In this document: piece after piece, positions 1,959 through 15,137 of the stretch | Position numbering within the stretch: position 1 is the stretch's first letter | How the letters are laid out: each line of letters opens with the position of its first letter | Assembly: GCA_016788685.1 (NCBI GenBank) | Contig: JAEUSS010000555.1 | Span: 1 to 15,137, forward strand | DNA length: 15,137 nt | Source: Prolixibacteraceae bacterium | Lineage (GTDB): Bacteria; Bacteroidota; Bacteroidia; Bacteroidales; Prolixibacteraceae | Reading direction: 5' to 3' | Program-made: the position numbers and the translations under genes | The notes under the pieces: model-generated | What the model was told of the DNA's origin: nothing | What the model saw: only the letters and a program-made list of their open reading frames with translations | Database searches by the model: none

Positions 1959-3209
1959 TTATGGGTATAATAAATACTTCTTGCGCAGTATCTTAAAATC
2001 AGAAAGTCCGGGCTCCCATGATTCCCGAATTTCTTTCTCCGTTTTTCCGGCTATAATCTGCTCTTTCAGCAAAGTAACTCCTGCCAGCTTATCGAAGTTA
2101 CCCATTTGTTTACTTTGCCTGAAATCAAAAAACTTCTCCTTAAACGGATAGGCATTATACATATCAATCAGCCACTTAATATTTATTCTCCCGGTCTCAC
2201 GAAATTCGTTGATATCGTATTCCCGAAGATCGAGACCATAACAGGCTTTATCCTGGTGAAGCGGCGTCTCGGCCATTCCTTTAAGACTAACCGGAGTAAA
2301 CGAAAATTCATACTTTCCTTTCAGATCGGGATTACCCAAAACAGTAAACGGGAAATAAGTTCCGCGCCCCTGACTGACAATCGTACCTTCAAACAAACAC
2401 AAAGAAGGATATAATAAGATGGATTGAGGTGTATTCAGATTGGGTGACGGAGCAATTGGTAATACATATTCCATGTTATGAGCATAATTAGCTACCGGAA
2501 TAATAGTTATCCGACATCTTACCTTGTTGGTCAGCCAGCCTTCTCCGTTGTACATTTGAGCCAATTCGCCAACAGTCATCCCGTGTGTGACCGGTATCGG
2601 AAACATGCCAATCCCCGATTTCAGTTTCATGTCCAGAATCGGACCGTCGACTGTAAACCCGTTCGGGTTCGGACGGTCCAGGATCAGCAGCTCTTTATTG
2701 TTGTCCGAGCATGACTCCATCACCTTGGCCAGTAAGTTAATATAGGTATAAAACCTTGCGCCTACATCCTGAATATCGAAAATCACCAGGTCAACATTGG
2801 CCAGATCTTCTTTCGACGGTTTGCTTTTTTTGCCGTAAAGTGAAATTTCAGGAATTCCGGTTTTCACATCAATACTATCGGAAACTACAGCACCAGCACT
2901 GGCTGTCCCGCGAAAGCCATGTTCAGGACCAAAAATCTTTACAATATTTACTCCAAGTGACTTCAAGCTGTCAACCAGGGAGGTCTTTCCGATGACAGAA
3001 GTTTGATTAGCCACGATAGCAACTCGTTTATCTTTAAGCAATGGCAGATATTTATCCGTTTGCTCAGCTCCGGTTTTAATACCACGCTGAACCGGCAACG
3101 AATGTTCTGTGCCCGCCTGTTTTCTCGTTGTACTCCCGCAAGAAATAAGGACTCCGAAAATCATAATCAGAACCCAGGTTAAACTAACTACTCTCATATC
3201 TAAACGCAT
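1959..3209 (-). CDS. namZ: NamZ-like exo-beta-N-acetylmuramidase, lipoprotein (DUF1343/GH171)
   Basis: Predicted to remove MurNAc from the non-reducing end of peptidoglycan fragments, as shown for NamZ of Bacillus subtilis and for NamZ1/NamZ2 of Tannerella forsythia. Family hallmarks are FGPEHGFRG (GPEHG at 94-98; the Glu is the likely catalytic residue), FDIQDVGARFYTYI (144-157) and LDRPNPNG (177-184). The open frame reaches a TTG at 3227, but I prefer the ATG at 3209, which has AGGA at 3219-3216 six bases upstream; this gives 416 residues. The N-terminus is a hydrophobic signal ending GVLISC|G, a lipobox with Cys24, so the protein is a lipoprotein, probably facing the periplasm or exported. 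It is the last gene of the putative operon, 46 bases after the other namZ. The two differ clearly in sequence, so they are old paralogues rather than a recent duplication. Confidence 0.9.
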   Translation of the reverse strand: MRLDMRVVSLTWVLIMIFGVLISCGSTTRKQAGTEHSLPVQRGIKTGAEQTDKYLPLLKDKRVAIVANQTSVIGKTSLVDSLKSLGVNIVKIFGPEHGFRGTASAGAVVSDSIDVKTGIPEISLYGKKSKPSKEDLANVDLVIFDIQDVGARFYTYINLLAKVMESCSDNNKELLILDRPNPNGFTVDGPILDMKLKSGIGMFPIPVTHGMTVGELAQMYNGEGWLTNKVRCRITIIPVANYAHNMEYVLPIAPSPNLNTPQSILLYPSLCLFEGTIVSQGRGTYFPFTVLGNPDLKGKYEFSFTPVSLKGMAETPLHQDKACYGLDLREYDINEFRETGRINIKWLIDMYNAYPFKEKFFDFRQSKQMGNFDKLAGVTLLKEQIIAGKTEKEIRESWEPGLSDFKILRKKYLLYP

Positions 3210-3215
3210 TAACAT

Positions 3216-3219
3216 TCCT
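3216..3219 (-). promoter_or_regulatory. Ribosome binding site deciding the lipoprotein NamZ start
   Basis: AGGA reads on the minus strand at 3219-3216, six bases before the ATG at 3209. The alternatives are a TTG at 3227 that lacks such a motif, an ATG at 3215 only one base from it, and an ATG at 3197 with no motif at useful distance. Shine-Dalgarno motifs are often weak in Bacteroidota, so this is supporting evidence, not proof. Confidence 0.45.
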
Positions 3220-3255
3220 AATATCAAACATTTTACACACTAAAGGCAGATGCTG

Positions 3256-4491
3256 CTATTTATACAACCAATATTTCTTCGACAGCTTCTGAAACGCAGT
3301 TTCATCTTTTCGCCAATACGGCAGCATGTCGTCCACCTTCATATTTTTTGCCATCAGCAAACGGATTTGGTCCGAGCCGCAAACTTTGTCAAACATATCG
3401 AAGCGTTTTTCGGTTTCCGGACCAAAACATTTTTTATCCGGATACAAAGCAGCCATTTCCTGCATCACGTAAAACTGAATCTCGGTCAGTCTCGCTTTTT
3501 TATAATCCGTCAGATAAAACTGAACTCCGGAGTAATTTTTACCCTGCCCAACCGCATAAAAAGGTTTCAGGAAAATCGGGCGGAACAACACTCCGGGTAA
3601 ATGCAGATCGTTCAGGCGTTTGGTCAGCAAACTGGCATCAATCGAGTCTTTGGCAAAAACCTGAAACGGAAGGGTGTAGCCCACTCCTATCGACATAAAA
3701 CTGAATTCGCCCAGAATGCCCGAAGCGGCATAATAGTATGCCGACATAGCATGGGGTACATGAGGTGATGTCAACACCCACGGCAATCCGGTCTGATCAA
3801 AAGTCATGTTGCGCTTCCAGCCTTTCATCGGAACAACAGTGAGTTTACACTGTTTTCCCAACATATTTTCGTTGTTCAGGAGCTTCGCCAGTTCGCCGCA
3901 GGTCAGACCGTATAAATACGGAATTTTGAACTGGCTGACAAACGAAATAAATTTATCTTCAGCCAGGTTTCCTTCAACTTTTAATCCGCCGACCGGGTTC
4001 GGGCGGTCGAGTACCACAAATTCAAGGTTGTTTTCGGCAGCCGCTTCCATAGCCAGCCCCATCGTGCTGATGTAGGTATACGACCGGCAGCCAATATCCT
4101 GAATGTCATAAACGAGCACATCCACATCCTTCAGCATTTCGGCATTGGCTTTCCGGGTTTTGCCGTACAGCGAGTATACCGGAACGCCTGTCTGCTTGTC
4201 GACGGTGGTTTCTACTTTGTCGCCAGCATGCACGTCTCCGCGGACACCATGTTCCGGACCATACAAAGCCACCAGCTTTACTCCGGGAGCTTCATTCAGG
4301 ATGTCAACTGTTGATTTCAGCTGGGAATCGACTCCGGTCGGATTGGTAATCAATCCCACCCGTTTCCCCTGAAGAATCCTGAAGTTATTGTCCCGCAGAA
4401 CCTCAATTCCCGTTTTTACTTTCGGGACAGCTACTGCGGCAGTTATGATAAAAGAAAATGCCGTAATAAATAGAACTAGTTTGGTTTTCAT
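3256..4491 (-). CDS. namZ: NamZ-like exo-beta-N-acetylmuramidase, secreted (DUF1343/GH171)
   Basis: A second predicted exo-muramidase of 411 residues, the usual length of the family. Visible motifs are YGPEHGVRG (GPEHG at 78-82), YDIQDIGCRSYTYI (128-141) and LDRPNP (161-166). The N-terminus is a classical signal peptide (about residues 1-21, ending TAAVA) without a lipobox cysteine, so it should be soluble in the periplasm, unlike its lipoprotein neighbour. The ATG at 4491 lies two bases after the stop of the nagZ fusion gene, which makes translational coupling likely. In the known pathway NamZ acts after NagZ and the amidase have exposed a peptide-free MurNAc, and the gene order here fits that sequence. 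Two NamZ enzymes may differ in preference for chain length or for residual stem peptides, as reported for T. forsythia. Confidence 0.92.
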   Translation of the reverse strand: MKTKLVLFITAFSFIITAAVAVPKVKTGIEVLRDNNFRILQGKRVGLITNPTGVDSQLKSTVDILNEAPGVKLVALYGPEHGVRGDVHAGDKVETTVDKQTGVPVYSLYGKTRKANAEMLKDVDVLVYDIQDIGCRSYTYISTMGLAMEAAAENNLEFVVLDRPNPVGGLKVEGNLAEDKFISFVSQFKIPYLYGLTCGELAKLLNNENMLGKQCKLTVVPMKGWKRNMTFDQTGLPWVLTSPHVPHAMSAYYYAASGILGEFSFMSIGVGYTLPFQVFAKDSIDASLLTKRLNDLHLPGVLFRPIFLKPFYAVGQGKNYSGVQFYLTDYKKARLTEIQFYVMQEMAALYPDKKCFGPETEKRFDMFDKVCGSDQIRLLMAKNMKVDDMLPYWRKDETAFQKLSKKYWLYK

Positions 4492-4493
4492 GT

Positions 4494-7400
4494 TTATTGA
4501 TTTTTCATGTTTCTGTAAATGACCGACAGAATTTCGGTCCTGACATTCAAATCGCTGATCAGGTTATTGTTCCGCGTCGGGTAAACCCGGTTCGACAGAA
4601 AAATATACATCAGCTGGCTCTTGGGATCCATCCAGACAAAAGTGCCCGTATACCCGAAATGCCCGAAACTTTCAGGACTAACTTCCGGGCAGGGATAGGC
4701 ATCTGCCGGTTTAATTGATCCGATGTTGAGTGAAGGTTTATCGAAAATCAGTCCGCGACGGTTATTGTTCTGCGGAAACTGGGCGCGGGTAAACTCTTTC
4801 ATCGTTGCTTCGCTCACATATTGTTTCCCGCCGTAAGTCCCCATTTGCAAATACATTTGCATCAGTTTACCCAAATCGTTGGCCGAAGCAAACAATCCGG
4901 CATTTCCTGAGATTCCGCCCAGAACCGCTGCCGATTCATCGTGAACCGTTCCCTGCAATTGCTGAAAACGGTAATATTCGTCATTTTCGGTTGGTACAAT
5001 GCGGTCGCGCGAAAACTTTTTCAAAGGCAGGAATGTCAATTCCGAAGCACCTAACGGACGGTAAAAATTTTGCTCGGTAAACTCCTGAAAATCTGTTCCG
5101 GATACCTTTTTGACAATCTGCGGCGTTATAACCAAAGGCAGATCGCTGTAAACGTATTTCCCACGGGTTTTTAGCGGCGTCTTTCTGATTTCCTGATTGA
5201 CTGTTTTTACAAAACGGTTGTCGAGATACATATCCGGAGCCACACAAAGCGAATGCTTTTTATCAGCCTGAGCCGTATACCACCTGGGTGACAACTTCCC
5301 GTCTTTCAGTGTCTTTTTCCAGAGACCGATAAACGGCACCAAGCCCGACTGATGGGCATATAACTCACGAACAGTTACATCGGCTTTATCCGAGCGGTGA
5401 AACAACCGGTTTTTCCAATCGGGGAAATACCTGGAAACAGGTTTATCCAGATCAATTTTCCCTTCGTCGTACAATTTCAGAATCCCGGGCAAACCTCCGC
5501 TGATTTTGGTCACCGAAGCCAGATCGTACAAATCGTCCAGTCTGGCGGGTACCTTCTTCTCGAAAGTATGGTATCCGTAGGCCTTCCTGAAAATGATCTT
5601 CCCGTCTTTGGCTACAAGCACATTGCAGCCCGGAAATGCTTTTTTATCAAGGGCATTGTTTACAACCGAATCAATATCGCGGTTCAGCGCCTGCGATACA
5701 ATTCCAACCTCCTCCGGAATTGTATATTTTAAACGGACCGGTTTTTCAATGGTAATCCCGTCGCCGGTTTTGTACCGGGTTCCAATGTCTACAGGTAGTT
5801 TTCCTTGTGCCCCAATGCCGCCAAACAATTGCTGCGCAGCCAACGACTGAACCAAAGTATCGTTCTGATAGGCAATCACTAAACCACCGGGTCTTCCGGA
5901 AGCCTTTAACTCGCCCAACGCGTACGGACTCGAAAAATAAACCAGGATTGATTTTTTGGTGTTCGTCAAATAATCAGCAAGTTGTTCAAGCTCCGAAGTC
6001 GCGCCATACGGTCGTTTGGCGGGTTCTTTCTGCAAAATCCCGACCTGCATCGATTTTCGCGTTTTACTTTCGTACAGCGAGTGAATCCCGGCAATCACCA
6101 GGTTGTAAGATGCCAGTTTGGTTTTTAAATCGGCCAGATCATTTTCAGTAAAATGCTCCGGAAGATTATAAAAATCAACTTTTGTATAATTGGCAAGCAT
6201 TTTCTGGAAAGGGGTTACCAAATTCTCGCCCACCGAAAGTGCCGCAATTTTCAGGGTATCCAGTCCACCGATCGGAATCAGGTTATGCTGATTTTCAAGT
6301 AATGTGAGCGAAGCCTCAATCATTTTAATCTTCAGCAGTTCGGCCTGCGGCGAATTAAGTCCGCCAAGCAGGTTATCCGAATTCAACACCTGCTTTTTAT
6401 TCAGTCCTGCCCAGAATTTGGCGGCCAGCACCCGGCGGCATTTCAGGTTAATTTCGTCCCAACTCAATACTTTTTCCTGAAGAGCATTTTGTATCGCTTT
6501 GATTGTAACCACCGCATCGGTCGGAAATTCAATCACATCATTTCCGGCCTTCAGAGCCTGAACATCAATTTCTCCGGGCTTTCCATAACTTTTGGCTCCG
6601 GCCATATTCATGGCGTCAGTAATCACTAATCCCTTATAATTCCACTCTTTCCGGAGAATATCTTCTGTAATCTTTCCTGAAAGGCTGGCCGGAATTCCTT
6701 TTTCGGCATCCAGTTGCGGAACATTCAGATGCGCAGTCATGATTCCGCCCACGCCGGCTTCCGAGAGCATTTTGAAAGGAACAAACTCAACCGAGTCGAG
6801 CCGCTCCCGTCCGTAAGGCAATTGAGGAAGGGTAAGATGCGAATCAAATTGCGTATCGCCATGTCCGGGATAATGTTTGGCTATGGCAATAATTCCGTTT
6901 TCCTGAAGCCCTTCCATATAGGCCAGACTATTGGCAGCAACCTGATGCGGTACTTGTCCGAACGAACGCATGCCGATAATCGGGTTTTCAGGATTGGTAT
7001 TGATGTCACAACTTGGGCCCAAAGAAACATGAATACCAAGCCGTTTCATCTGCTTCGCCATTTCGGCAGCCGACTGTCGGATCAGATCCGGACGTTGCGA
7101 TGCGCCCATCATCATGTTGTAAGGGAAAGCCATCACACCGGGCAGACGCATGGCAATTCCCCATTCTGCATCGGCGGCAACCAGAAGCGGAGTTCGGGCA
7201 AGCGACTGGCAGTAATTTGTAAAACGAATCACGCTGTCGGGCTCGGCCTGAAAATAAATAATCCCGCCAACACCATAGTTTTTCACCAAATCAGCAACTT
7301 TATCCTGTCCGGCTTTGTCCCGACTCACATCCACCCAAATCAACTGGGCTATGCGCTGCTCCGGTGTCAACGAATTAAAAACCGAATCAACCCATTGATT

Positions 7401-7526
7401 TTGCATCAACTTGTCCAGATTTATCTGTGCCTTTGCCTCAGCAAAAAACAGATTCAAAATCAATCCGGCTGCAACAGCGCGAATCAGACTCAGGCTGAAA
7501 CTCCGTCTTAAAATTCCATTTTTCAT
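4494..7526 (-). CDS. nagZ: Bifunctional NagZ (GH3 beta-N-acetylglucosaminidase) fused to AmiE-like serine hydrolase
   Basis: Exported 1010-residue fusion. Residues 1-33 are a signal peptide ending AKA|Q. Residues about 45-380 are a GH3 domain of NagZ type: KHYPGHGDTQFDSH at 217-230 supplies the Asp228-His230 acid/base pair typical of NagZ, and VITDAMNM at 301-308 supplies the nucleophile Asp304. Residues about 400-600 resemble the GH3 C-terminal sandwich domain. Residues about 605-1005 are a beta-lactamase/class C PBP fold with SVTK (Ser671, Lys674), YSD (793-795) and GHFGYTG (955-961) as the three active-site motifs. In B. subtilis, separate neighbouring genes encode NagZ and AmiE, a beta-lactamase-like MurNAc-L-alanine amidase; the fusion would join both steps in one periplasmic protein. 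The GH3 activity is firm; amidase rather than peptidase or esterase activity of the second half is inference. It is followed by namZ after two bases. Confidence 0.93.
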   Translation of the reverse strand: MKNGILRRSFSLSLIRAVAAGLILNLFFAEAKAQINLDKLMQNQWVDSVFNSLTPEQRIAQLIWVDVSRDKAGQDKVADLVKNYGVGGIIYFQAEPDSVIRFTNYCQSLARTPLLVAADAEWGIAMRLPGVMAFPYNMMMGASQRPDLIRQSAAEMAKQMKRLGIHVSLGPSCDINTNPENPIIGMRSFGQVPHQVAANSLAYMEGLQENGIIAIAKHYPGHGDTQFDSHLTLPQLPYGRERLDSVEFVPFKMLSEAGVGGIMTAHLNVPQLDAEKGIPASLSGKITEDILRKEWNYKGLVITDAMNMAGAKSYGKPGEIDVQALKAGNDVIEFPTDAVVTIKAIQNALQEKVLSWDEINLKCRRVLAAKFWAGLNKKQVLNSDNLLGGLNSPQAELLKIKMIEASLTLLENQHNLIPIGGLDTLKIAALSVGENLVTPFQKMLANYTKVDFYNLPEHFTENDLADLKTKLASYNLVIAGIHSLYESKTRKSMQVGILQKEPAKRPYGATSELEQLADYLTNTKKSILVYFSSPYALGELKASGRPGGLVIAYQNDTLVQSLAAQQLFGGIGAQGKLPVDIGTRYKTGDGITIEKPVRLKYTIPEEVGIVSQALNRDIDSVVNNALDKKAFPGCNVLVAKDGKIIFRKAYGYHTFEKKVPARLDDLYDLASVTKISGGLPGILKLYDEGKIDLDKPVSRYFPDWKNRLFHRSDKADVTVRELYAHQSGLVPFIGLWKKTLKDGKLSPRWYTAQADKKHSLCVAPDMYLDNRFVKTVNQEIRKTPLKTRGKYVYSDLPLVITPQIVKKVSGTDFQEFTEQNFYRPLGASELTFLPLKKFSRDRIVPTENDEYYRFQQLQGTVHDESAAVLGGISGNAGLFASANDLGKLMQMYLQMGTYGGKQYVSEATMKEFTRAQFPQNNNRRGLIFDKPSLNIGSIKPADAYPCPEVSPESFGHFGYTGTFVWMDPKSQLMYIFLSNRVYPTRNNNLISDLNVRTEILSVIYRNMKNQ

Positions 7527-7621
7527 TCGTTTGCAGTTTGTTTTTTAGTTGTCAGATCAGAACTCCCGGATAATCATCTTTTGGGTAAAAAAGAACTTCG
7601 TTCCGGCATTTCCTATCGTTT

Positions 7622-8617
7622 TTAAAAAGTCTTCAGCCCGGCGCTCATCTGGGCTGTCAGCTCCTCGAAAGTATCCTGACTGAGACTCACTTGTGCCAGA
7701 ATATCAATTATATCATCACTGGTAATCTTTTCAAAATCCTCTTGTCTGGGGAGGATGAAAACTCCGCCAAAATCAACCGATCCGGGGCTAATCAGGATTT
7801 GCTCATCGCCGGCTGCAAAGAACTGGCTTGGCCGGTGCGCTTTTCTGGGGAAAAGATGAGTTGTCCACTTCCCTTCAGCATAAGAGCACAGCACATTCAT
7901 CATCGGCTCCATCTTTTCGGGCTGCATCGCCTGAAAATGCGAATAATAAATCCCGATAACTTTCAGCATTTCGTCCATCGAACTGGTTTCAACCGAAATC
8001 ATTTTCCGGAGGTAATCATCGAAAGCCCAAACCTGAGTGTCTTTTCCTGAAAAAAGCAGCCTTCCTGAATGTTCTTTCAACCCTTCAAACTCTTCGCCAA
8101 TGGGCATAAACCCATTTTCTCCCGCCTGAAAGTGCAGGTGGTCGGGAGCCGAAGCGCCACATTCAGGCCCATTGTAAAATACGGTAAAACCTTCCATAGC
8201 CTTGGCCAGTTCGGGCAAATACCGGAAATTGGGAATAAAACGCTGATCGACGTGACTGTTGCACGAAATGGTAAAATGATACCTGAAAATGGGGAACGGG
8301 TTAACCAAAATCAGAAACTGATCGCCAAAAGCAATAGCATCTTGTTCCGGAGGACGATTTTCGCTGCACAAAAAACATTGGCGGGCTGCAATCGATTTTT
8401 TATCCACACTGGCTGCCGACGAACGCATCCGTTCCGGATTAAACTGAGCCCGGACTTCAAATCCGTCAAACTGAAAACTCTTCTCCTCGACCTTCTCCAA
8501 TCCCTTAAAGTTGGCTGCTGCCAGGGGCCAGTTCTGCTTTTGCGACTCCGTAAAACCACGAAGAATCTGAGCCGCTGTTTTATCTGTATTTGCTATGATA
8601 TCAAGCAATTGTTCCAT
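7622..8617 (-). CDS. DUF4922 protein, HIT/GalT-superfamily nucleotidyl-transfer-type enzyme
   Basis: A cytoplasmic protein without signal peptide, 331 residues from the ATG at 8617 (a GTG at 8677 would add 20). The key motif is HLHFQ at 160-164, preceded by NGPECGASAPD. This HxHxQ pattern is used by ATP adenylyltransferase (Apa2), galactose-1-phosphate uridylyltransferase and GDP-hexose phosphorylases such as plant VTC2, where a histidine carries the nucleotidyl group. NPFPIFRYHFTI (106-117) and a C-terminal FILPR (287-291) also match that superfamily loosely. A CFLC pair at 81-84 might bind zinc. No function is established that I know of; it probably makes or phosphorolyses a nucleotide sugar or dinucleotide. 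I chose the ATG because the preceding 77 bases hold a 9-bp inverted repeat and the 20 extra residues do not look like family sequence. It lies directly after the glycosyltransferase gene, which suggests joint work. Confidence 0.85.
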   Translation of the reverse strand: MEQLLDIIANTDKTAAQILRGFTESQKQNWPLAAANFKGLEKVEEKSFQFDGFEVRAQFNPERMRSSAASVDKKSIAARQCFLCSENRPPEQDAIAFGDQFLILVNPFPIFRYHFTISCNSHVDQRFIPNFRYLPELAKAMEGFTVFYNGPECGASAPDHLHFQAGENGFMPIGEEFEGLKEHSGRLLFSGKDTQVWAFDDYLRKMISVETSSMDEMLKVIGIYYSHFQAMQPEKMEPMMNVLCSYAEGKWTTHLFPRKAHRPSQFFAAGDEQILISPGSVDFGGVFILPRQEDFEKITSDDIIDILAQVSLSQDTFEELTAQMSAGLKTF

Positions 8618-8635
8618 AAAATCTTTTTTCAAAGA

Positions 8636-8675
8636 GGATGCCTCCAACGTGCGGAACACAAATTTTGAGGCATCC
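8636..8675 (-). repeat. 9-bp inverted repeat (hairpin) between the glycosyltransferase and DUF4922 genes
   Basis: On the minus strand GGATGCCTC (8675-8667) is followed after 22 bases by its perfect complement GAGGCATCC (8644-8636); one more G-C pair follows a mismatch. It starts 20 bases after the glycosyltransferase stop and ends 18 bases before the preferred ATG at 8617. No T run follows, so it is not a standard terminator. It could be an RNA processing or stability element, or a translational control element. If the GTG at 8677 were the real start, the repeat would lie inside coding sequence. Confidence 0.6.
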
Positions 8676-8695
8676 ACTTTACATTTTTTATCTTC

Positions 8696-10144
8696 CTATT
8701 TCTTCCGCGCTTTTAATTCGATGGTGCGAATGCGGTCTTTGTACAAATTATGAGCATTCATCACTTCGATGCTGAGCGAAGCGTCTGAATTTTCGTCCCA
8801 GCGGCGGCACAGGTAAATCGGGTTGTAAATGCGCCCAATCTGGTAATGGCGCGAAATGGCCAAACCCAGCGCATAATCTTCTCCGTAATTCACGTTCGGA
8901 ACCGGAATCCGGCGCAAAACCGGTGTATAGAACGCACGCGGTGCCCCCAACCCGTTGATGCGAAGTGCGTTGTTGCGTCCGTTCTCTGGTGTCCATTCTT
9001 TGTGGTCGATAATTCCCGGAGGAATTTCTTCAAGCGCAAAATTTACCATTTGGTATGTACCGACAACCATCGCGCAGTTCTGCTGGTAAAACGCATCAAC
9101 AACCTGCTGAACAGTGGTTTCATCAAAATACATATCGTCGCTGTCGAGCTGAATGGCAAATTTCCCGCATTTCGGATGGTTAGCCGCCAAATTCCAGCAA
9201 CCGCCAATACCTAAATCGGTGCGGTCAGGAATAATGTGAACCAGCCGATCGTCAGCCGCAGCATATTTCTGAATCAACTCGGTCGTTCCGTCAGTTGAAA
9301 AATTATCAGCAATAATCAGGTTAAATTTAAAACCGGCTTTCTGCGACAACACCGATTTGATGGCATCTTCAATGGTTTTCACGCGGTTTTTCACCGGGAT
9401 AATGACCGAAGCTTCCACTTCAAACACCTGTTCGTCAAACTGAACGGGTTTGAAGACAGGCTCCAGGAAAGCGCCGACATTTTTCAGGTGTTGGGTACAG
9501 GCTTTTTCCATTTCAATTTGTACCGCACGGTTTTTCGGATCGACATAATCGAATATTTTCTCTCCCGATTTACGCAGATCTGATTCCTGTTCGGTATACA
9601 AATTCTCCGGAATCCGGAATAAATCGGCATACTGCGAAACGCCCAAACGGAGTGAATACAATCCGGCAAAATCGAAATCCTCGGAAACCTGTTCAGCCGC
9701 CTTTTTCATGATTTCGGTGCGGAAAAACAACACAGATCCGAAATTAAAATCGTCTCGCAAGCTACCTTCCTGGTAATCGATAACCGGATGATTTTCAACT
9801 TTCCCGTTTTTAACGGCCAGATAATTCGAATAAACCATGCCACTTTGCGTATCGTCAGCTACCTGAGCAAAGCGTTCCAGCGCCAGCTGCCCCAGCTGAA
9901 GCGAACTCTGCCGGGTATAAATCAGCGTATAGCGGGTATTGGCCAAGCCTGCAATCCGTTTAACAGTTTTACCGCTGGTCAGCGGTTCCGACACCAGCAC
10001 TTCCACCCCTTCGATGAAGCAAGTCTGCTCGGCGTTCCTTACTACTATGATTTTTGAAACAAGTTCTGACTTCTGCAACTCCTGAACTGTTTTCAGGGTT
10101 TCTTCCTGCGTTCCGCAGGGAATAAAACAGGTAATTTTTTTCAT
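8696..10144 (-). CDS. Family 2 glycosyltransferase with two GT-A-like halves
   Basis: A cytoplasmic transferase of 482 residues, with no signal peptide or membrane segments. The C-terminal half (about 245-470) is a clear GT2 domain: ASVIIPVKNRVKTIEDAIKS near 245-264, NFSTDGTT at 281-288, metal and nucleotide-binding DSDD at 334-337, and NYGEDY at 419-424, where the acidic pair is the probable catalytic base. The N-terminal half (1 to about 235) starts MKKITCFIPCG and also resembles a GT-A fold, but has IYTRQSSL where an Asp motif would be expected, so it is probably inactive or a binding domain. Donor and acceptor are unknown. The frame opens at a TTG at 10150; the ATG at 10144 is preferred because it starts the MKKITCF strand. 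It lies 103 bases after the amidase gene and just before the DUF4922 gene. Confidence 0.88.
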   Translation of the reverse strand: MKKITCFIPCGTQEETLKTVQELQKSELVSKIIVVRNAEQTCFIEGVEVLVSEPLTSGKTVKRIAGLANTRYTLIYTRQSSLQLGQLALERFAQVADDTQSGMVYSNYLAVKNGKVENHPVIDYQEGSLRDDFNFGSVLFFRTEIMKKAAEQVSEDFDFAGLYSLRLGVSQYADLFRIPENLYTEQESDLRKSGEKIFDYVDPKNRAVQIEMEKACTQHLKNVGAFLEPVFKPVQFDEQVFEVEASVIIPVKNRVKTIEDAIKSVLSQKAGFKFNLIIADNFSTDGTTELIQKYAAADDRLVHIIPDRTDLGIGGCWNLAANHPKCGKFAIQLDSDDMYFDETTVQQVVDAFYQQNCAMVVGTYQMVNFALEEIPPGIIDHKEWTPENGRNNALRINGLGAPRAFYTPVLRRIPVPNVNYGEDYALGLAISRHYQIGRIYNPIYLCRRWDENSDASLSIEVMNAHNLYKDRIRTIELKARKK

Positions 10145-10247
10145 GCCCAATTGATTATCATTATTAAAAATCTTTTACTTGTGACGAATCTGTCTGAAAT
10201 CTTCGGCCTCTTTAATTCGGCCACACAAGCTCTTGCTGCCTTTTATA

Positions 10248-13200
10248 TTATTTCATCTCCCAGAATTTCAAAATCTGCCCCATCAGCTCAGCGCGCTGTT
10301 TTTCGGTGGTAATCGTTTCAAACGGGAAGCCGAGGACAACAGACTTATACTTTCCTTCATAACAAACTCCGGCGGTTTTGTTATCGCCTTTGTACCTGAA
10401 GAGCACCCGGGCATCTTTCCCTTTGGGTTCAATCGCATCGGGCGACTCGACCTTGTAAATCGCCGGATTGTAATCCTGAACAAATCTGAACTCGCTGGAA
10501 AACTGTTCTTTCACAGCGTTTACCGGATAAACACAGCCACTTTTGCTGGCATGGTTGGTCATAAACCGGTAATGCAGTACCTCTCCGGCAAAGTTGCGGG
10601 CCAGTGTATCTCCGCAAAGTTCCAGGTCTGTTCCGACATAAGCTCCGGAAATAAAAATACGGGCCTGATCTCCCGAGGAATATCCGGAGATAGCCTGCCG
10701 CATTCCGGGAGTAAAAAGACTAAAATCAGTCTTCTTAAATCCATACAGCCTCCTGGTCGTTTTTTCTTCTCCGAAAATGATGTCAAGCGCAGAAAAAGCG
10801 TTTTTATCCCAGTTGTTTTGTTCAAATACTTCATCGCTCACCGAAACAAATCCCAGTCCGTTGCTCCGGAAAGCCTGACCATGAACCAGCGGATAGTCGA
10901 ATGAATTTCCCTGCATAATGCGTGTTTCCTGATCGGCATAACAAGAGCCGAAACCCGAGGCATCGTCGTCGAGCCAGGGCGATTTACGGTTAAAATCGTA
11001 CTGTTCGCCGATGTAGCCCAAATCAGTATGATAAGCAACGCCCTCATCTTCACTCATCCGGAAACCGGCTTCTTTGCCGTTATCAAAGGCTGCCGGACCA
11101 CAAATACGGTCGAAGGCATTCACGATCAAAACCGGCTTTTTATCATCGGTTGGCAGGCAACAGGCCAGAATTTCAGAAGGGAAACTTTCGCCGCCTTCGT
11201 TTACTGCCGTCACCTTAAAACTATAAATAACACCCGGCTTTAAATCACGAAGCACCAGAGAAGGTTCATTCACCTCGCGCCCGTTATCGAATCCGCCATT
11301 TTCAATACGGGTATAAACCCGATAAGACTTGGCAACTGCCGTGGGTTCCAGCTGATCGGACACCGGTTTCCAGTCCAGACGGATATTTTTTCCCTCCATA
11401 CCGATTTGAAAATGACTGACCGGAAGTGGCTGAACCACATATTCCTGATTATTCTGGAAAGCCAGAAACTTCAGAATCCCTTTATAATAAGCCCTGCTCA
11501 CATCGAATTTAAACCGCGGATCGTAGGCTTGGTACATATCGGCAAAATTCTGGTGCGAAAGCAATTCAGAAAGCAGTGTCGGCACTTTAGGGCGGACAGC
11601 TTCCGCATATTGTTTGTTCCACATTCCGCGGCGTGTCCATTCGGGTTCGTACAGCTTCTGCAAATCGTCAACCACCTGAGTCTGCACCAAATCGCACAAA
11701 TCCCGGCTGGCCCAACGCGACTGTCCGTTCGGGAATTCCGGTTTTCCGTAAGTTGTGTCGTAAATCATCAGACTGCCGATAATCGCGCTGTCTTTTGTTG
11801 TTCCTGCATCGGTATGAAAAGCCAATGCCATGTCAACCGGAATACCCAATCCCGGGGCATTCGGATTTGCCGATGGTCCGTTTGGCGCTCCCATCAGGTA
11901 GTTCACCCACTCGCCCCGGCTTTGGTAATCATCTTTATAATCGTTTTTTCCCCTTTCGCGTTTGGCATACAAAGCTGCATCCTGTCCGCGGTTCGAATAG
12001 TCACTTTTCTCTTTGTTCAATACATAAACCAGTGAATCGGGCATTCCGGTATACTGCAGGAAATAGCGGGCACCTTCCTGGTAACGCGGGCGCTGACTGG
12101 CAAAAGGGAGCCACACCGACGAATCCAGCGAAAAACCTTTTTCATCGCGCAGTTTCTTCAGCTTGTCCATATCCTGAAACTTGCCGCGCACCACATTGCC
12201 CATTCCGCCGCCAAAACGAACGGCATCGGCCGAAACCCATTTCCCGTTTTCTCCGGAAAGATTCGTCAGTTCAACCTTTCCGCCGGTCATCCCTTTTTCG
12301 AACCTGAAGGTTCCCAGATAAATCCAGGTTCCGCCGCCAATAGTCTGATTCACCAGAAATTCGGTTTTCCCTCCTGAGTGATAAACGGAATAATGAGCAT
12401 CAGTTACCCGATCAACGCCCTGCGCATACGATACGTATACCGCATATTCACCCGATTCAGGAATTTCAGGAATATAATTAATTGCAGCGTCAGCTGTCCG
12501 CTTAGCCGGCATTTGCCGGGTTTTCCCCATCCCAAAAGGATTTTCGCCTTCCAGCAAAAACGGCACTTTTAAGCCAAATCCTTTCTCACGTCCTTCCTCA
12601 ATATCCGCTCCGGTTTCCTGGTAATAGGCTCCGCGAGCAGAACCATCGGCGTCGATGATGATTTCGTGAGTCTGAGTATCGCGTTCACGCGGAAGGAAAA
12701 CACTCGCTCCGCCATTTTCGAGCATCGGAGTGATGTAGGGAACCACAAAACTCATGGTCCACAAGTCTTCAACCGTCAGGAAAACCCTTGCGCGCTGCCA
12801 CTCCCAGCGGTCGAGTGTATTCTCGTAGTACCAGCCGTGACTGTGCCAAAGTGCCACATTCCTGTTGCTCAGCCCTTTGGTCGGATTCTCATTTTTCGAC
12901 TTGTTGCGAACAACCGGGACGACCGTCTTGCCCGGGCGACTCAAGCGGGCTGAATCAACCGGAACATTGTTTCCACGGTAATAATTCGGAATCAGTCCGG
13001 ATATTTCTTTGCCCATACTCTCAATGGTCACCGAATAATTTCGGAATTTTCGCCCAAGTAAATCCTGGTACCAATTGTAATATTGTGTAGTATTTTCGGG
13101 CCGGAAGGGAATGTACGAAAAAGTCTCCTTCATCTTCAGATTTACACTTTTGACCTGACTGTCAACTATAACCGTATCAACCCGAAAACGGTAAGCTGTT

Positions 13201-13355
13201 CCGGAAGAAGCCTTTTCAGCCCATTCAACCGAAGCCCGATCGGCTTTTTTCAGCAGACGTTTGGACTGAGCAAAGCCCGGCTGAGAAATTACAGCCAGAA
13301 GTACGATTCCAATCAAAAACTTCGTCAAACTTCTATTTTCCACTATTTTAAACAT
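10248..13355 (-). CDS. Secreted Amidase_3-like N-acetylmuramoyl-L-alanine amidase with golvesin/xanthan-lyase-like insert and FN3 domain
   Basis: A 1035-residue exported protein of the kind often labelled 'xanthan lyase' in Bacteroidota. Residues 1-29 are a signal peptide ending PGFA|Q. An Amidase_3-like zinc fold appears in two pieces: VALWHSHGWYYE (167-178) with LPRERD (221-226), and later LAFHTDAG (511-518) and LLSELLSHQNFADM (594-607), followed by AYYKGILKFLAF. Candidate ligands are a His at 171 or 173, a nearby Glu and His514; Glu597 matches the catalytic Glu of the family. Between the pieces lies a golvesin C-terminal-like domain (about 265-385, ending SADAVRFGGG). An FN3 domain spans about 643-733. 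The last 300 residues start PVLIVNAFDR and I cannot name that domain. In this operon it most plausibly cleaves stem peptides from peptidoglycan; lyase action on xanthan is not supported by any motif I see. Confidence 0.82.
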   Translation of the reverse strand: MFKIVENRSLTKFLIGIVLLAVISQPGFAQSKRLLKKADRASVEWAEKASSGTAYRFRVDTVIVDSQVKSVNLKMKETFSYIPFRPENTTQYYNWYQDLLGRKFRNYSVTIESMGKEISGLIPNYYRGNNVPVDSARLSRPGKTVVPVVRNKSKNENPTKGLSNRNVALWHSHGWYYENTLDRWEWQRARVFLTVEDLWTMSFVVPYITPMLENGGASVFLPRERDTQTHEIIIDADGSARGAYYQETGADIEEGREKGFGLKVPFLLEGENPFGMGKTRQMPAKRTADAAINYIPEIPESGEYAVYVSYAQGVDRVTDAHYSVYHSGGKTEFLVNQTIGGGTWIYLGTFRFEKGMTGGKVELTNLSGENGKWVSADAVRFGGGMGNVVRGKFQDMDKLKKLRDEKGFSLDSSVWLPFASQRPRYQEGARYFLQYTGMPDSLVYVLNKEKSDYSNRGQDAALYAKRERGKNDYKDDYQSRGEWVNYLMGAPNGPSANPNAPGLGIPVDMALAFHTDAGTTKDSAIIGSLMIYDTTYGKPEFPNGQSRWASRDLCDLVQTQVVDDLQKLYEPEWTRRGMWNKQYAEAVRPKVPTLLSELLSHQNFADMYQAYDPRFKFDVSRAYYKGILKFLAFQNNQEYVVQPLPVSHFQIGMEGKNIRLDWKPVSDQLEPTAVAKSYRVYTRIENGGFDNGREVNEPSLVLRDLKPGVIYSFKVTAVNEGGESFPSEILACCLPTDDKKPVLIVNAFDRICGPAAFDNGKEAGFRMSEDEGVAYHTDLGYIGEQYDFNRKSPWLDDDASGFGSCYADQETRIMQGNSFDYPLVHGQAFRSNGLGFVSVSDEVFEQNNWDKNAFSALDIIFGEEKTTRRLYGFKKTDFSLFTPGMRQAISGYSSGDQARIFISGAYVGTDLELCGDTLARNFAGEVLHYRFMTNHASKSGCVYPVNAVKEQFSSEFRFVQDYNPAIYKVESPDAIEPKGKDARVLFRYKGDNKTAGVCYEGKYKSVVLGFPFETITTEKQRAELMGQILKFWEMK

Positions 13356-13456
13356 ATAGAATTCCGTTAATCACTTTTTAAACCGAACTGAGAAAACCGG
13401 CTGAAGAACAGCACAATTGTCTTCCCGCCGTACATTAACCATACGGGCCAGATGCC

Positions 13457-14566
13457 CTATACTTTTATAAAAATCTTCTTTTTATAGAGTACGTAACCAA
13501 TGAGCCAAAAAACTAGCACATGTGAAATGGCATAGAGCAGCGAGCCATTCAGCTGACCAGCCAAAGGCACAAAAACATCGCGGTAGAGTTTAGCCGATCC
13601 GCTGATTACTTTTCCGTCCGGATCGGTGAAATGAACCAGCCGTCCGAAAACCTTGGACCAAAGTCCGGATAATGCGAAGATGAACAGCGGATTCATGCCA
13701 AAAACCACAAAAAAAGAAGTCCATTTCGAATAGTTTTTCAGGTCGATAACCCAGATCAGCAAAGCCAAAACCAAACAAGCCCATCCGGCGGTGTAAAGTA
13801 CGTATGAACTGCTCCAGATCGGTTTGTTAATCGGGAATACCAATCCCCAGATCAGACCTGAAACGATGGCTGCAACTCCGAAAAGAATCAGTGTTTTAGG
13901 CACTTGACTTTTCTCGGTGTCTTTAACTACCGATCCGATCAGATAACCAATTATGACGGTCACAATGGCCGGAATGGTACTCAGCAATCCTTCCGGATCG
14001 AAAGGAATTCCGTAAACCTTGTACAGGTGGTCAACTCCGAGAATTGCAGAGTCGACAGCCATAGTCGCATTTCCCTGAAGCGAAAAAGGATCGGAACCGC
14101 CCAAAACGTACATCAGCCCCCAATAAAACAACAATATGACAGCACCAATGTAGGGCAGATACTTGCGCGGCGAAGCCAGCACAATGACAGCTCCAATACC
14201 GTAAGCCAGAGCAATTCGCTGCAGCACTCCCAGAATACGCAGCTTCGAATAATCGGTGGTCCACTGCGGAAACGAATTCAGGAATAACCCGATGGCAAAA
14301 ATCAGCAGTGTTCGTTTGCCGATTTTCAGGAGTGATTCCTTATTTAGCGAATTGCCGTATTTTGAAAACGAAAAAAACATGGAAACGCCGACCACAAAAA
14401 GAAAGAAAGGAAATACCAGGTCGGTTGGTGTGCATCCGTGCCATTGGGCATGTTTCAGCGGTGCGTAGATGTGCGACCAGCTTCCGGGCGTATTTACCAG
14501 AATCATCAGGGCGACGGTCATGCCGCGCAGCACATCAAGCGCCAGGTAACGTTGCGTTGTTTTCAT
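13457..14566 (-). CDS. DUF5009/NagX-like membrane protein, heparan-alpha-glucosaminide N-acetyltransferase (HGSNAT) family
   Basis: An inner membrane protein of 369 residues with about ten hydrophobic segments. It begins LALDVLRGMTVALMILVNTP (8-27), then LKHAQWHGCTPTDLVFPFFL (37-56). This matches the start of human lysosomal HGSNAT, whose active-site histidine sits in the equivalent H-A-x-W segment; His39 is the counterpart here. HGSNAT moves an acetyl group from cytosolic acetyl-CoA to a glucosamine on the other side of the membrane. Bacterial members are called NagX and sit in N-acetylglucosamine utilisation clusters. A role in acetylating or transporting amino sugars released from peptidoglycan is therefore a good guess; the precise reaction in bacteria is uncertain. 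The start ATG lies three bases after the symporter stop, so the two are probably translated together. Confidence 0.88.
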   Translation of the reverse strand: MKTTQRYLALDVLRGMTVALMILVNTPGSWSHIYAPLKHAQWHGCTPTDLVFPFFLFVVGVSMFFSFSKYGNSLNKESLLKIGKRTLLIFAIGLFLNSFPQWTTDYSKLRILGVLQRIALAYGIGAVIVLASPRKYLPYIGAVILLFYWGLMYVLGGSDPFSLQGNATMAVDSAILGVDHLYKVYGIPFDPEGLLSTIPAIVTVIIGYLIGSVVKDTEKSQVPKTLILFGVAAIVSGLIWGLVFPINKPIWSSSYVLYTAGWACLVLALLIWVIDLKNYSKWTSFFVVFGMNPLFIFALSGLWSKVFGRLVHFTDPDGKVISGSAKLYRDVFVPLAGQLNGSLLYAISHVLVFWLIGYVLYKKKIFIKV

Positions 14567-14569
14567 GCG

Positions 14570-15137
14570 TTATTGTTGCTTTTTGGTTAGTAACATCAGA
14601 CCGGTAAACATGATCAAGCCGTTCAGGAGCAAAAGCTCGAAGCCAAATTTGTACCCCCCGAACCAAGCCTCCGAGTTAAGGTTGATGATGTAGGTCAGCA
14701 CAGGAGAAAGCAGCCCGAGAACAGGTACCCAACGGTCTTTCACCTGCCGCTTGGTTAAAATTCCGAATGCAAACAGCCCGAGCAACGGACCATACGTATA
14801 GCCTGCCATCGTGAAAACAGCTGTCACTACACTGTCGTTATTGATAACACGGAAAAGTACAATGACCAGAAACATGATAACCGAAAAAGCGATGTGCACT
14901 TTCATCCGGGTTGATTTAGTATCGGGATCTTTGGTGTCCATGTTCAGGAAATCGATACAGAACGAGGTGGTTAAGGCTGTTAAAGCCGAATCAGCACTGG
15001 AATAGGCTGCAGAAATAATACCCAGCAGAAATAAAACTCCGGCAATCAGCCCGAAATGGTTCAGGGCCAGAACGGCAAACAAGTCATCCGATTTTGCCGG
15101 TATTTCAATGCCTTTTTGCTGAGCAAAGATGTAAAGC
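14570..15137 (-). CDS. Sodium:solute symporter (SSS family), C-terminal part
   Basis: The frame is open from the right edge to the TAA at 14570, giving 189 residues of a protein usually near 500; the start and the first transmembrane helices lie outside. The segment IISAAYSSADSALTALTTSF is the conserved TM8 region of the family, whose serines and neighbouring residues form the Na2 sodium site. Four or five further membrane segments follow (for example GPLLGLFAFGIL), ending MLLTKKQQ. Context suggests uptake of GlcNAc, MurNAc or another amino sugar or peptide product of peptidoglycan breakdown; the MurNAc transporter MurT of Tannerella forsythia serves the same need, but I cannot say whether it is orthologous. 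It is the first visible gene of the putative operon. Confidence 0.92.
   Translation of the reverse strand, partial: LYIFAQQKGIEIPAKSDDLFAVLALNHFGLIAGVLFLLGIISAAYSSADSALTALTTSFCIDFLNMDTKDPDTKSTRMKVHIAFSVIMFLVIVLFRVINNDSVVTAVFTMAGYTYGPLLGLFAFGILTKRQVKDRWVPVLGLLSPVLTYIINLNSEAWFGGYKFGFELLLLNGLIMFTGLMLLTKKQQ

Follow-up and report, generated by a model that had tools for sequence, protein, structure and literature searches.

Why should two genes that appear to encode cytoplasmic proteins lie within a run of peptidoglycan salvage genes? The question is raised by a stretch of 15,137 nucleotides from a Prolixibacteraceae bacterium (contig JAEUSS010000555.1 of assembly GCA_016788685.1), the whole of which is called the window in the following. 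In this window a family 2 glycosyltransferase (GT2) gene adjoins a gene for a DUF4922 protein with the motif HLHFQ. We find that the pair is part of a set, together with the permease AmpG and a SpoIID-type protein lacking a signal peptide, whose members are present or absent together across the tree of the order. AmpG and this SpoIID are the constant partners of the pair and were overlooked in the first-pass annotation. That GT2 and DUF4922 belong to such a four-gene module is a conclusion which we hold with great confidence.

Co-occurrence was surveyed in a sample of the order consisting of 129 genomes with a completeness limit of 90%, using one fixed E threshold for each protein (1e-40 for GT2 and MurQ, 1e-30 for SpoIID and AmpG). 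DUF4922 and GT2 were found in an identical set of 34 of the 129 genomes. A SpoIID homologue of the type adjoining DUF4922 occurred in 35 genomes, which are those 34 and genome G281, and an AmpG homologue in 37, namely the same 34 together with G281, G274 and G321, where the last two hold only a paralogue of 35-37% identity. The AmpG count excludes more distant AmpG-like proteins falling below E 1e-30.

A tree was built with FastTree from 19 proteins of the S10 region and covers 127 of the 129 genomes (G000 and G307 gave no L2 match and were left out); 37 of its 124 inner branches are open. Counted over 12 tree-corrected independent pairs with respect to DUF4922, GT2 agreed in all 12 (p 0.0005). 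SpoIID gave 11 pairs for, none against and one without difference (p 0.001), and for AmpG 9-10 pairs were for, none against and 2-3 without difference (p ~0.004).

The first-pass annotation had proposed a survey of the pair against namZ and nagZ. NamZ lies within 10 kb of DUF4922 in 14 of the 34 genomes, but it is present in 124 of the 129 and is therefore uninformative for association when taken alone. Among the 34 genomes with the pair, MurQ was found in 18, compared with 9 of the 95 others, and it lies within 10 kb of DUF4922 in 9. In a wider sample of the class, DUF4922 was found in 7 of 197 genomes, all belonging to the same order as the window, and NamZ in 189.

The members of the set are also neighbours. 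Of the 34 genomes, 27 have DUF4922 at most 500 bp from GT2 and 29 have it at most 2.5 kb away, and 5 have the two unlinked; within 10 kb of DUF4922 we found SpoIID in 23 genomes and AmpG in 25. Gene content was read around DUF4922 at 38 places, the window being one of them and fetched stretches the other 37; DUF4922 was called in 35. Seven of these 35 carry GT2 and DUF4922 as one open reading frame (ORF), and six carry a fusion of DUF4922 and SpoIID; three of these fusions are triple, with GT2, DUF4922 and SpoIID (L058, which is cut by a contig end, L070 and L071). The fusions in L054, L060 and L070 were confirmed by Pfam. As the greedy ORF caller hid some genes, with DUF4922 itself uncalled in L042, L045 and L064, fusions may be undercounted.

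Additionally, we have used a set of named loci, the best 80 of at least 560 relatives, many of them cut by contig ends. GT2 is seen in 71 of these, SpoIID in 56, AmpG in 52, a golvesin/fn3 protein in 37, a MurK-like kinase in 37, NamZ in 35, MurQ in 27 and a MurT-like protein in 20; the Bacteroides fragilis S82 locus (L266) holds the whole set, and B. clarus is also among the named loci with a full cluster. Families found in at least 5 of 41 loci comprise the trio of GT2, DUF4922 and SpoIID, AmpG, the MurK-like kinase, NamZ, golvesin/fn3, MurQ and NagX. In this order the co-occurrence of the four genes goes beyond phylogeny, they lie in clusters, and some genomes fuse the three that encode soluble proteins. 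The earlier proposal depended on the pair not being placed at random relative to salvage genes, and co-occurrence, linkage and named loci all agree with this.

The genes of the window, all on the minus strand, are given below in the order of the run from 15137 to 1959.

14570..15137, minus strand: C-terminal part of an SSS (sodium/solute) symporter; TIGR00813, below cut-off
13457..14566, minus strand: NagX/HGSNAT-type membrane protein; PF07786, with NF046061 below cut-off
10248..13355, minus strand: protein with golvesin C-terminal and fn3 domains and a signal-like N-terminus; PF25275, PF00041, hydropathy
8696..10144, minus strand: GT2 glycosyltransferase with two GT-A-type domains; PF00535
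7622..8617, minus strand: DUF4922 protein with HLHFQ and an Apa2-like fold; PF16269
4494..7526, minus strand: GH3 (NagZ-type) and beta-lactamase-like protein with a signal-like N-terminus; PF00933, PF00144, hydropathy
3256..4491, minus strand: NamZ exo-muramidase homologue; PF07075, PF20732
1959..3206, minus strand: second NamZ homologue; PF07075, PF20732

The identity of the two adjacent genes, as first described, is well founded, and the pair does stand out in its surroundings. The GT2 ORF (8696-10150, minus strand, with an ATG at 10144) matches PF00535 with 79.5 bits against a cut-off of 23.3, and the DUF4922 ORF (7622-8677, minus strand) matches PF16269 with 198.9 bits against a cut-off of 23.6. 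For the latter, alignment to relatives favours the ATG at 8617 as the likely start over the GTG at 8677.

The pair had been called cytoplasmic, and every other gene from 1959 to 15137 exported or membrane-bound and concerned with peptidoglycan. Over 12 N-terminal residues the hydropathy peak is 0.70 for DUF4922 and 0.92 for GT2, and 2.02-3.06 for the six neighbours. Among relatives a strong N-terminal peak was found in 1 of 33 DUF4922 and 1 of 28 GT2 proteins compared with 20 of 20 NamZ and 10 of 11 golvesin/fn3 proteins, and by hydropathy none of the 33 DUF4922 or 28 GT2 relatives has a transmembrane-like segment. The cytoplasmic location of the pair is thus consistent with the low hydropathy in window and relatives, and is deduced from missing export signals. 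The peaks of the six neighbours agree with the description given of them, except that the peptidoglycan role does not stand for the golvesin/fn3 protein. By eye this protein (10248-13355) resembles an Amidase_3-type N-acetylmuramoyl-L-alanine amidase; no library match to that part was obtained, and a peptidoglycan-degrading role is therefore not established for it. Scans of the window gave no excess of promoter-like (20 compared with 17.5 in shuffled sequence) or terminator-like signals (16 compared with 16.5), PHROGs gave no match for the two proteins tried, and a viral_contigs scan recovered no relative.

In the 331-residue form of the DUF4922 protein HLHFQ covers residues 160-164. An alignment was made of the window protein, 23 of the 34 other called DUF4922 ORFs and 9 of 120 listed homologues, leaving out fused or over-long ORFs, and HxHFQ is present in all 33. 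The fold comparison places the protein in the HIT/GalT/Apa2 nucleotidyl-histidine superfamily. Among the matches listed, the best-matching solved fold is that of Apa2, ahead of GalT and ADP-glucose phosphorylase, and Apa2 is also recovered by an alignment-based comparison; the lone sequence gave no match to PDB sequences. DUF4922 has a near full-length fold and the HxHxQ motif in common with the yeast Ap4A phosphorylase Apa2, but identity is 15-17% and the genomic setting differs.

The window protein does not match the Pfam Apa2 families PF19327 and PF09830 at 1e-3. Four relatives scanned against PF19327 scored 16.9, 21.3, 22.7 and 25.9 bits (cut-off 23.1), and one of the four scored 17.9 bits against PF09830 (cut-off 23.5). 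A structural comparison with VTC2, Apa2 and GalT had been suggested earlier; Apa2 is the closest and GalT is not. No VTC2-type structure is among the matches listed, which does not exclude the VTC2 family. In the parts of the literature at hand DUF4922 is met by name in two plant ascorbate papers, where some GGP proteins are said to carry the DUF4922 superfamily, and a search of the open-access literature found no study of a bacterial DUF4922 protein. Fold and motif thus bear out the assignment to the nucleotidyl-histidine type, and we consider it highly probable that DUF4922 is an enzyme of this kind. A nucleotide sugar is moderately favoured as its substrate.

The GT2 protein consists of a degenerate N-terminal GT-A-like domain (residues ~1-230) and a catalytic-type C-terminal GT-A domain (~243-482), the latter with DSDD at 334-337 and GEDY at 421-424. 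Both donor-site motifs are intact in all 28 aligned proteins (28 of 35 GT2 ORFs, fused or over-long ones left out), which places the protein in the GT2 family and agrees with its first description as a transferase. GT2 resembles chondroitin polymerase KfoC and heparosan synthase 2, but a single DxD-type site remains. The N-terminal equivalent of DxD is mostly YTK-like, and 4 of the 28 proteins have a D anywhere between 75 and 82; since this domain is without DxD a two-site copolymerase is unlikely, and a two-site copolymer synthase of the KfoC type was rejected.

SpoIID-type enzymes are lytic transglycosylases leaving 1,6-anhydro ends. The partner of the pair keeps the catalytic-type glutamate (SEM, E119) and the zinc ligands H176, C182, H186 and C187 in 20 of 20 aligned proteins, the alignment having been made from 20 of 28 SpoIID ORFs after exclusion of those that were fused or over-long. 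A strong N-terminal hydrophobic stretch or transmembrane-like segment was found by hydropathy in none of the 20. It differs from the known enzymes in having no visible signal peptide or anchor and in being fused to DUF4922 or to GT2-DUF4922 in some genomes. The reference residues given for Clostridioides difficile SpoIID are E101, H134, C140, H145 and C146, and activity and residues of the type are treated in the sections available of PMC6635528 and PMC6221140.

What could the four proteins do together? Tentatively, and with slightly less than even confidence, we take the pair to be the nucleotide-using arm of a peptidoglycan-recycling module made up of AmpG, a cytosolic SpoIID, GT2 and DUF4922. 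We infer this from fold, motifs and genomic company. AmpG would import an anhydro-muropeptide or disaccharide. SpoIID would be catalytically competent, as an enzyme of the lytic-transglycosylase type on the cytosolic side, and would act on the glycosidic or 1,6-anhydro bond of the imported fragment, a step that a NagZ-type GH3 may take in some other loci. GT2 would take its sugar from a nucleotide donor and place it on an acceptor. DUF4922 would form a nucleotidyl-histidine and carry out a nucleotide exchange, with a nucleotide sugar on one side and phosphate or a sugar phosphate on the other. The two would in this way couple the SpoIID step to the nucleotide-sugar pool, and the sugar would re-enter metabolism with AnmK not necessarily needed.

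AmpG recycling is usually described together with NagZ, AmpD and AnmK. The present system resembles that of E. coli in its AmpG-type permease and, in the window, a NagZ-type GH3. It differs in the company kept by the AmpG subfamily found in this order, which is the pair (34 of 37 genomes) rather than AnmK (5 of 37). AnmK was found in 86 of the 129 genomes, comprising 5 of the 34 pair genomes (in G230 only as pieces) compared with 81 of the 95 others (Fisher p 2e-13). Outside one clade of 30 genomes it is present in 4 of 9 trio genomes compared with 80 of 88 others (p 0.002).

A closer comparison is offered by Tannerella forsythia, where the genes Tanf_08345-08385 form one transcript in the order xanthan lyase, gtf, gtf, lytB, ampG, ybbC, murT, murK and murQ (PMC5388701). 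The order matches that of relatives such as L069 and L061. Judged from gene order alone, the second gtf would be DUF4922 and ybbC NamZ, the xanthan lyase would be the counterpart of the golvesin/fn3 protein, and the NagX/HGSNAT relatives would occupy the MurT position. The window differs from this operon in that its run is without SpoIID and AmpG and has the GH3 and two NamZ genes after DUF4922. In the published passages at hand the gtf and lytB genes are given no enzymatic role; MurK is covered by PMC10465942. According to the sections available of PMC7670621, no AnmK ortholog is predicted in T. forsythia and its handling of anhydro-MurNAc (anhMurNAc) 'remains to be explored'.

Several observations weigh against a recycling module of this kind, or against its independence of AnmK. 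In the genome of the window AmpG and SpoIID lie side by side on another contig (C244), away from the pair. At E 1e-40, 16 of the 34 genomes with the pair, this one included, gave no MurQ. The closest fold to DUF4922 is that of a dinucleotide phosphorylase rather than a sugar-nucleotide enzyme. Of the 80 named loci, 9 show no GT2, and four of these 9 are shorter than 8 kb. L208 and L209, which belong to the 9, are two of the nearest named relatives (75-76% identity to the window DUF4922); in them DUF4922 adjoins golvesin/fn3 with no GT2 between. In L269 (Parabacteroides) and L277 DUF4922 stands in ~21 kb without the other families searched for. L220, L231, L239 and L284 (~21 kb) hold the pair without the salvage genes searched for, and three shorter named loci also hold the pair alone. 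Among 14 control genomes PF16269 was matched in Bacteroides ihuae, Synechococcus elongatus and Lactococcus lactis, the latter two outside the phylum, where the module was not sought. As for AnmK, most of the association is driven by the 30-genome clade, which is without any AnmK and comprises 24 genomes with the trio and 6 without it. After tree correction ~3 pairs showed the opposite pattern, none the same pattern, and 9 showed no difference (p 0.25). The genome of the window holds AnmK as well as the pair (451.7 bits, NCBIfam cut-off 436), and B. ihuae matches both DUF4922 and AnmK. Finally, a T. forsythia ampG mutant showed restricted growth on anhMurNAc, comparable to that of the wild type, as stated in the sections available of PMC7670621; this lends no support to free anhMurNAc as a good substrate in that species.

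Strict exclusion of AnmK by the trio was rejected, as 5 of the 34 trio genomes keep AnmK and the tree-corrected test was non-significant. Because both the genome of the window and B. ihuae hold the two together, because of the p value of 0.25 and because of the restricted growth on anhMurNAc in T. forsythia, replacement of AnmK by the trio is regarded as a lead rather than a result. An AnmK-independent route of whatever kind seems doubtful. Its specific form, in which SpoIID would open imported 1,6-anhydro-MurNAc as a ring-opening transglycosylase or hydrolase while GT2 and DUF4922 supply or recover nucleotide-activated sugar, is considered unlikely.

Further variants were seen among the loci. 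The AmpG homologues (L204:9-1886 and others) come in two lengths, ~436 and ~625 residues, the longer with ~190 residues between the matched halves. AmpG is without SpoIID in 8 named loci. In four of these, L226, L253, L278 and L282, titled Ignavibacteriales, Bacteroidetes, Balneolales and Bacteroidetes, respectively, a NagZ-type GH3 comes after DUF4922, either as the next gene or as the one after it, in the place of SpoIID and beside GT2 and AmpG; the three complete genes have KHFPGHG, and a signal peptide is not visible. Whether NagZ enzymes of family GH3 are phosphorylases, as has been argued, is a matter of dispute (PMC6572805, in the part at hand). Genome G031 has two GT2 genes (L063:11979-13448 and L062:8183-10660), one fused to DUF4922 and the other beside SpoIID, AmpG and NamZ without DUF4922. 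In L249 SpoIID and GT2 are separated by a 377-residue ORF (7207-8337) that by eye resembles glycosyltransferases of the GT4 type. Full Bacteroides clusters contain an FAD-linked 4Fe-4S protein (L069:14343-17207), read as D-lactate-dehydrogenase-like, which would fit lactate released by MurQ.

Other explanations have been considered. The pair could build a glycan, either a surface polysaccharide or a protein O-glycan, from salvaged sugars, so that the operon couples wall salvage to glycosylation. The resemblance of GT2 to chondroitin polymerase and heparosan synthase, the extra ORF in L249, by eye alone a glycosyltransferase, and a description of the T. forsythia operon as glycosylation-related, in the portion of the source at hand, are all in line with this. 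However, the families in at least 5 of the 41 loci, where no search by name was made, include none for polysaccharide export or priming, and the missing N-terminal DxD makes a two-site copolymerase unlikely. On balance we find a glycan product improbable. Equally improbable is that DUF4922 is an Ap4A- or adenosine phosphosulfate (APS)-type phosphorylase that would remove dinucleotides or tune nucleotide pools, with co-regulation as its sole tie to salvage. The Apa2-like fold is what such an enzyme would have, but DUF4922 is fused to GT2 and SpoIID, co-occurs with both after tree correction, and in the window matches neither Apa2 Pfam family at 1e-3.

A still less probable explanation is that the trio makes or destroys a cytosolic anhydro-muropeptide signal instead of recycling sugar in bulk. 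A SpoIID that keeps its active-site residues without an export signal, and is of a type leaving 1,6-anhydro ends, would suit this purpose. Against it, no regulator-like family is among those in at least 5 of the 41 loci, where no systematic search was made, and the cluster has catabolic-type genes such as the MurK-like kinase, MurQ and the D-lactate-dehydrogenase-like protein. Chance or shared ancestry alone, although of the 33 trio genomes placed on the tree 24 come from a single clade of 30 genomes, GT2 and DUF4922 are unlinked in 5 of 34 and some relatives have DUF4922 without a nearby GT2, was rejected by the tree-corrected pairs and the linkage counts and has hardly any credence left, as GT2 and DUF4922 agree in 12 of 12 independent pairs, natural fusions exist, and even the unlinked genes share the same genomes.

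In this order and in the B. fragilis S82 cluster, AmpG travels with three soluble proteins, and our literature search met with no reaction assigned to them in these bacteria. Defining the reaction of the trio would address how anhMurNAc is handled by T. forsythia, for which no AnmK is predicted in the sections available of PMC7670621, and would give bacterial DUF4922 a function.

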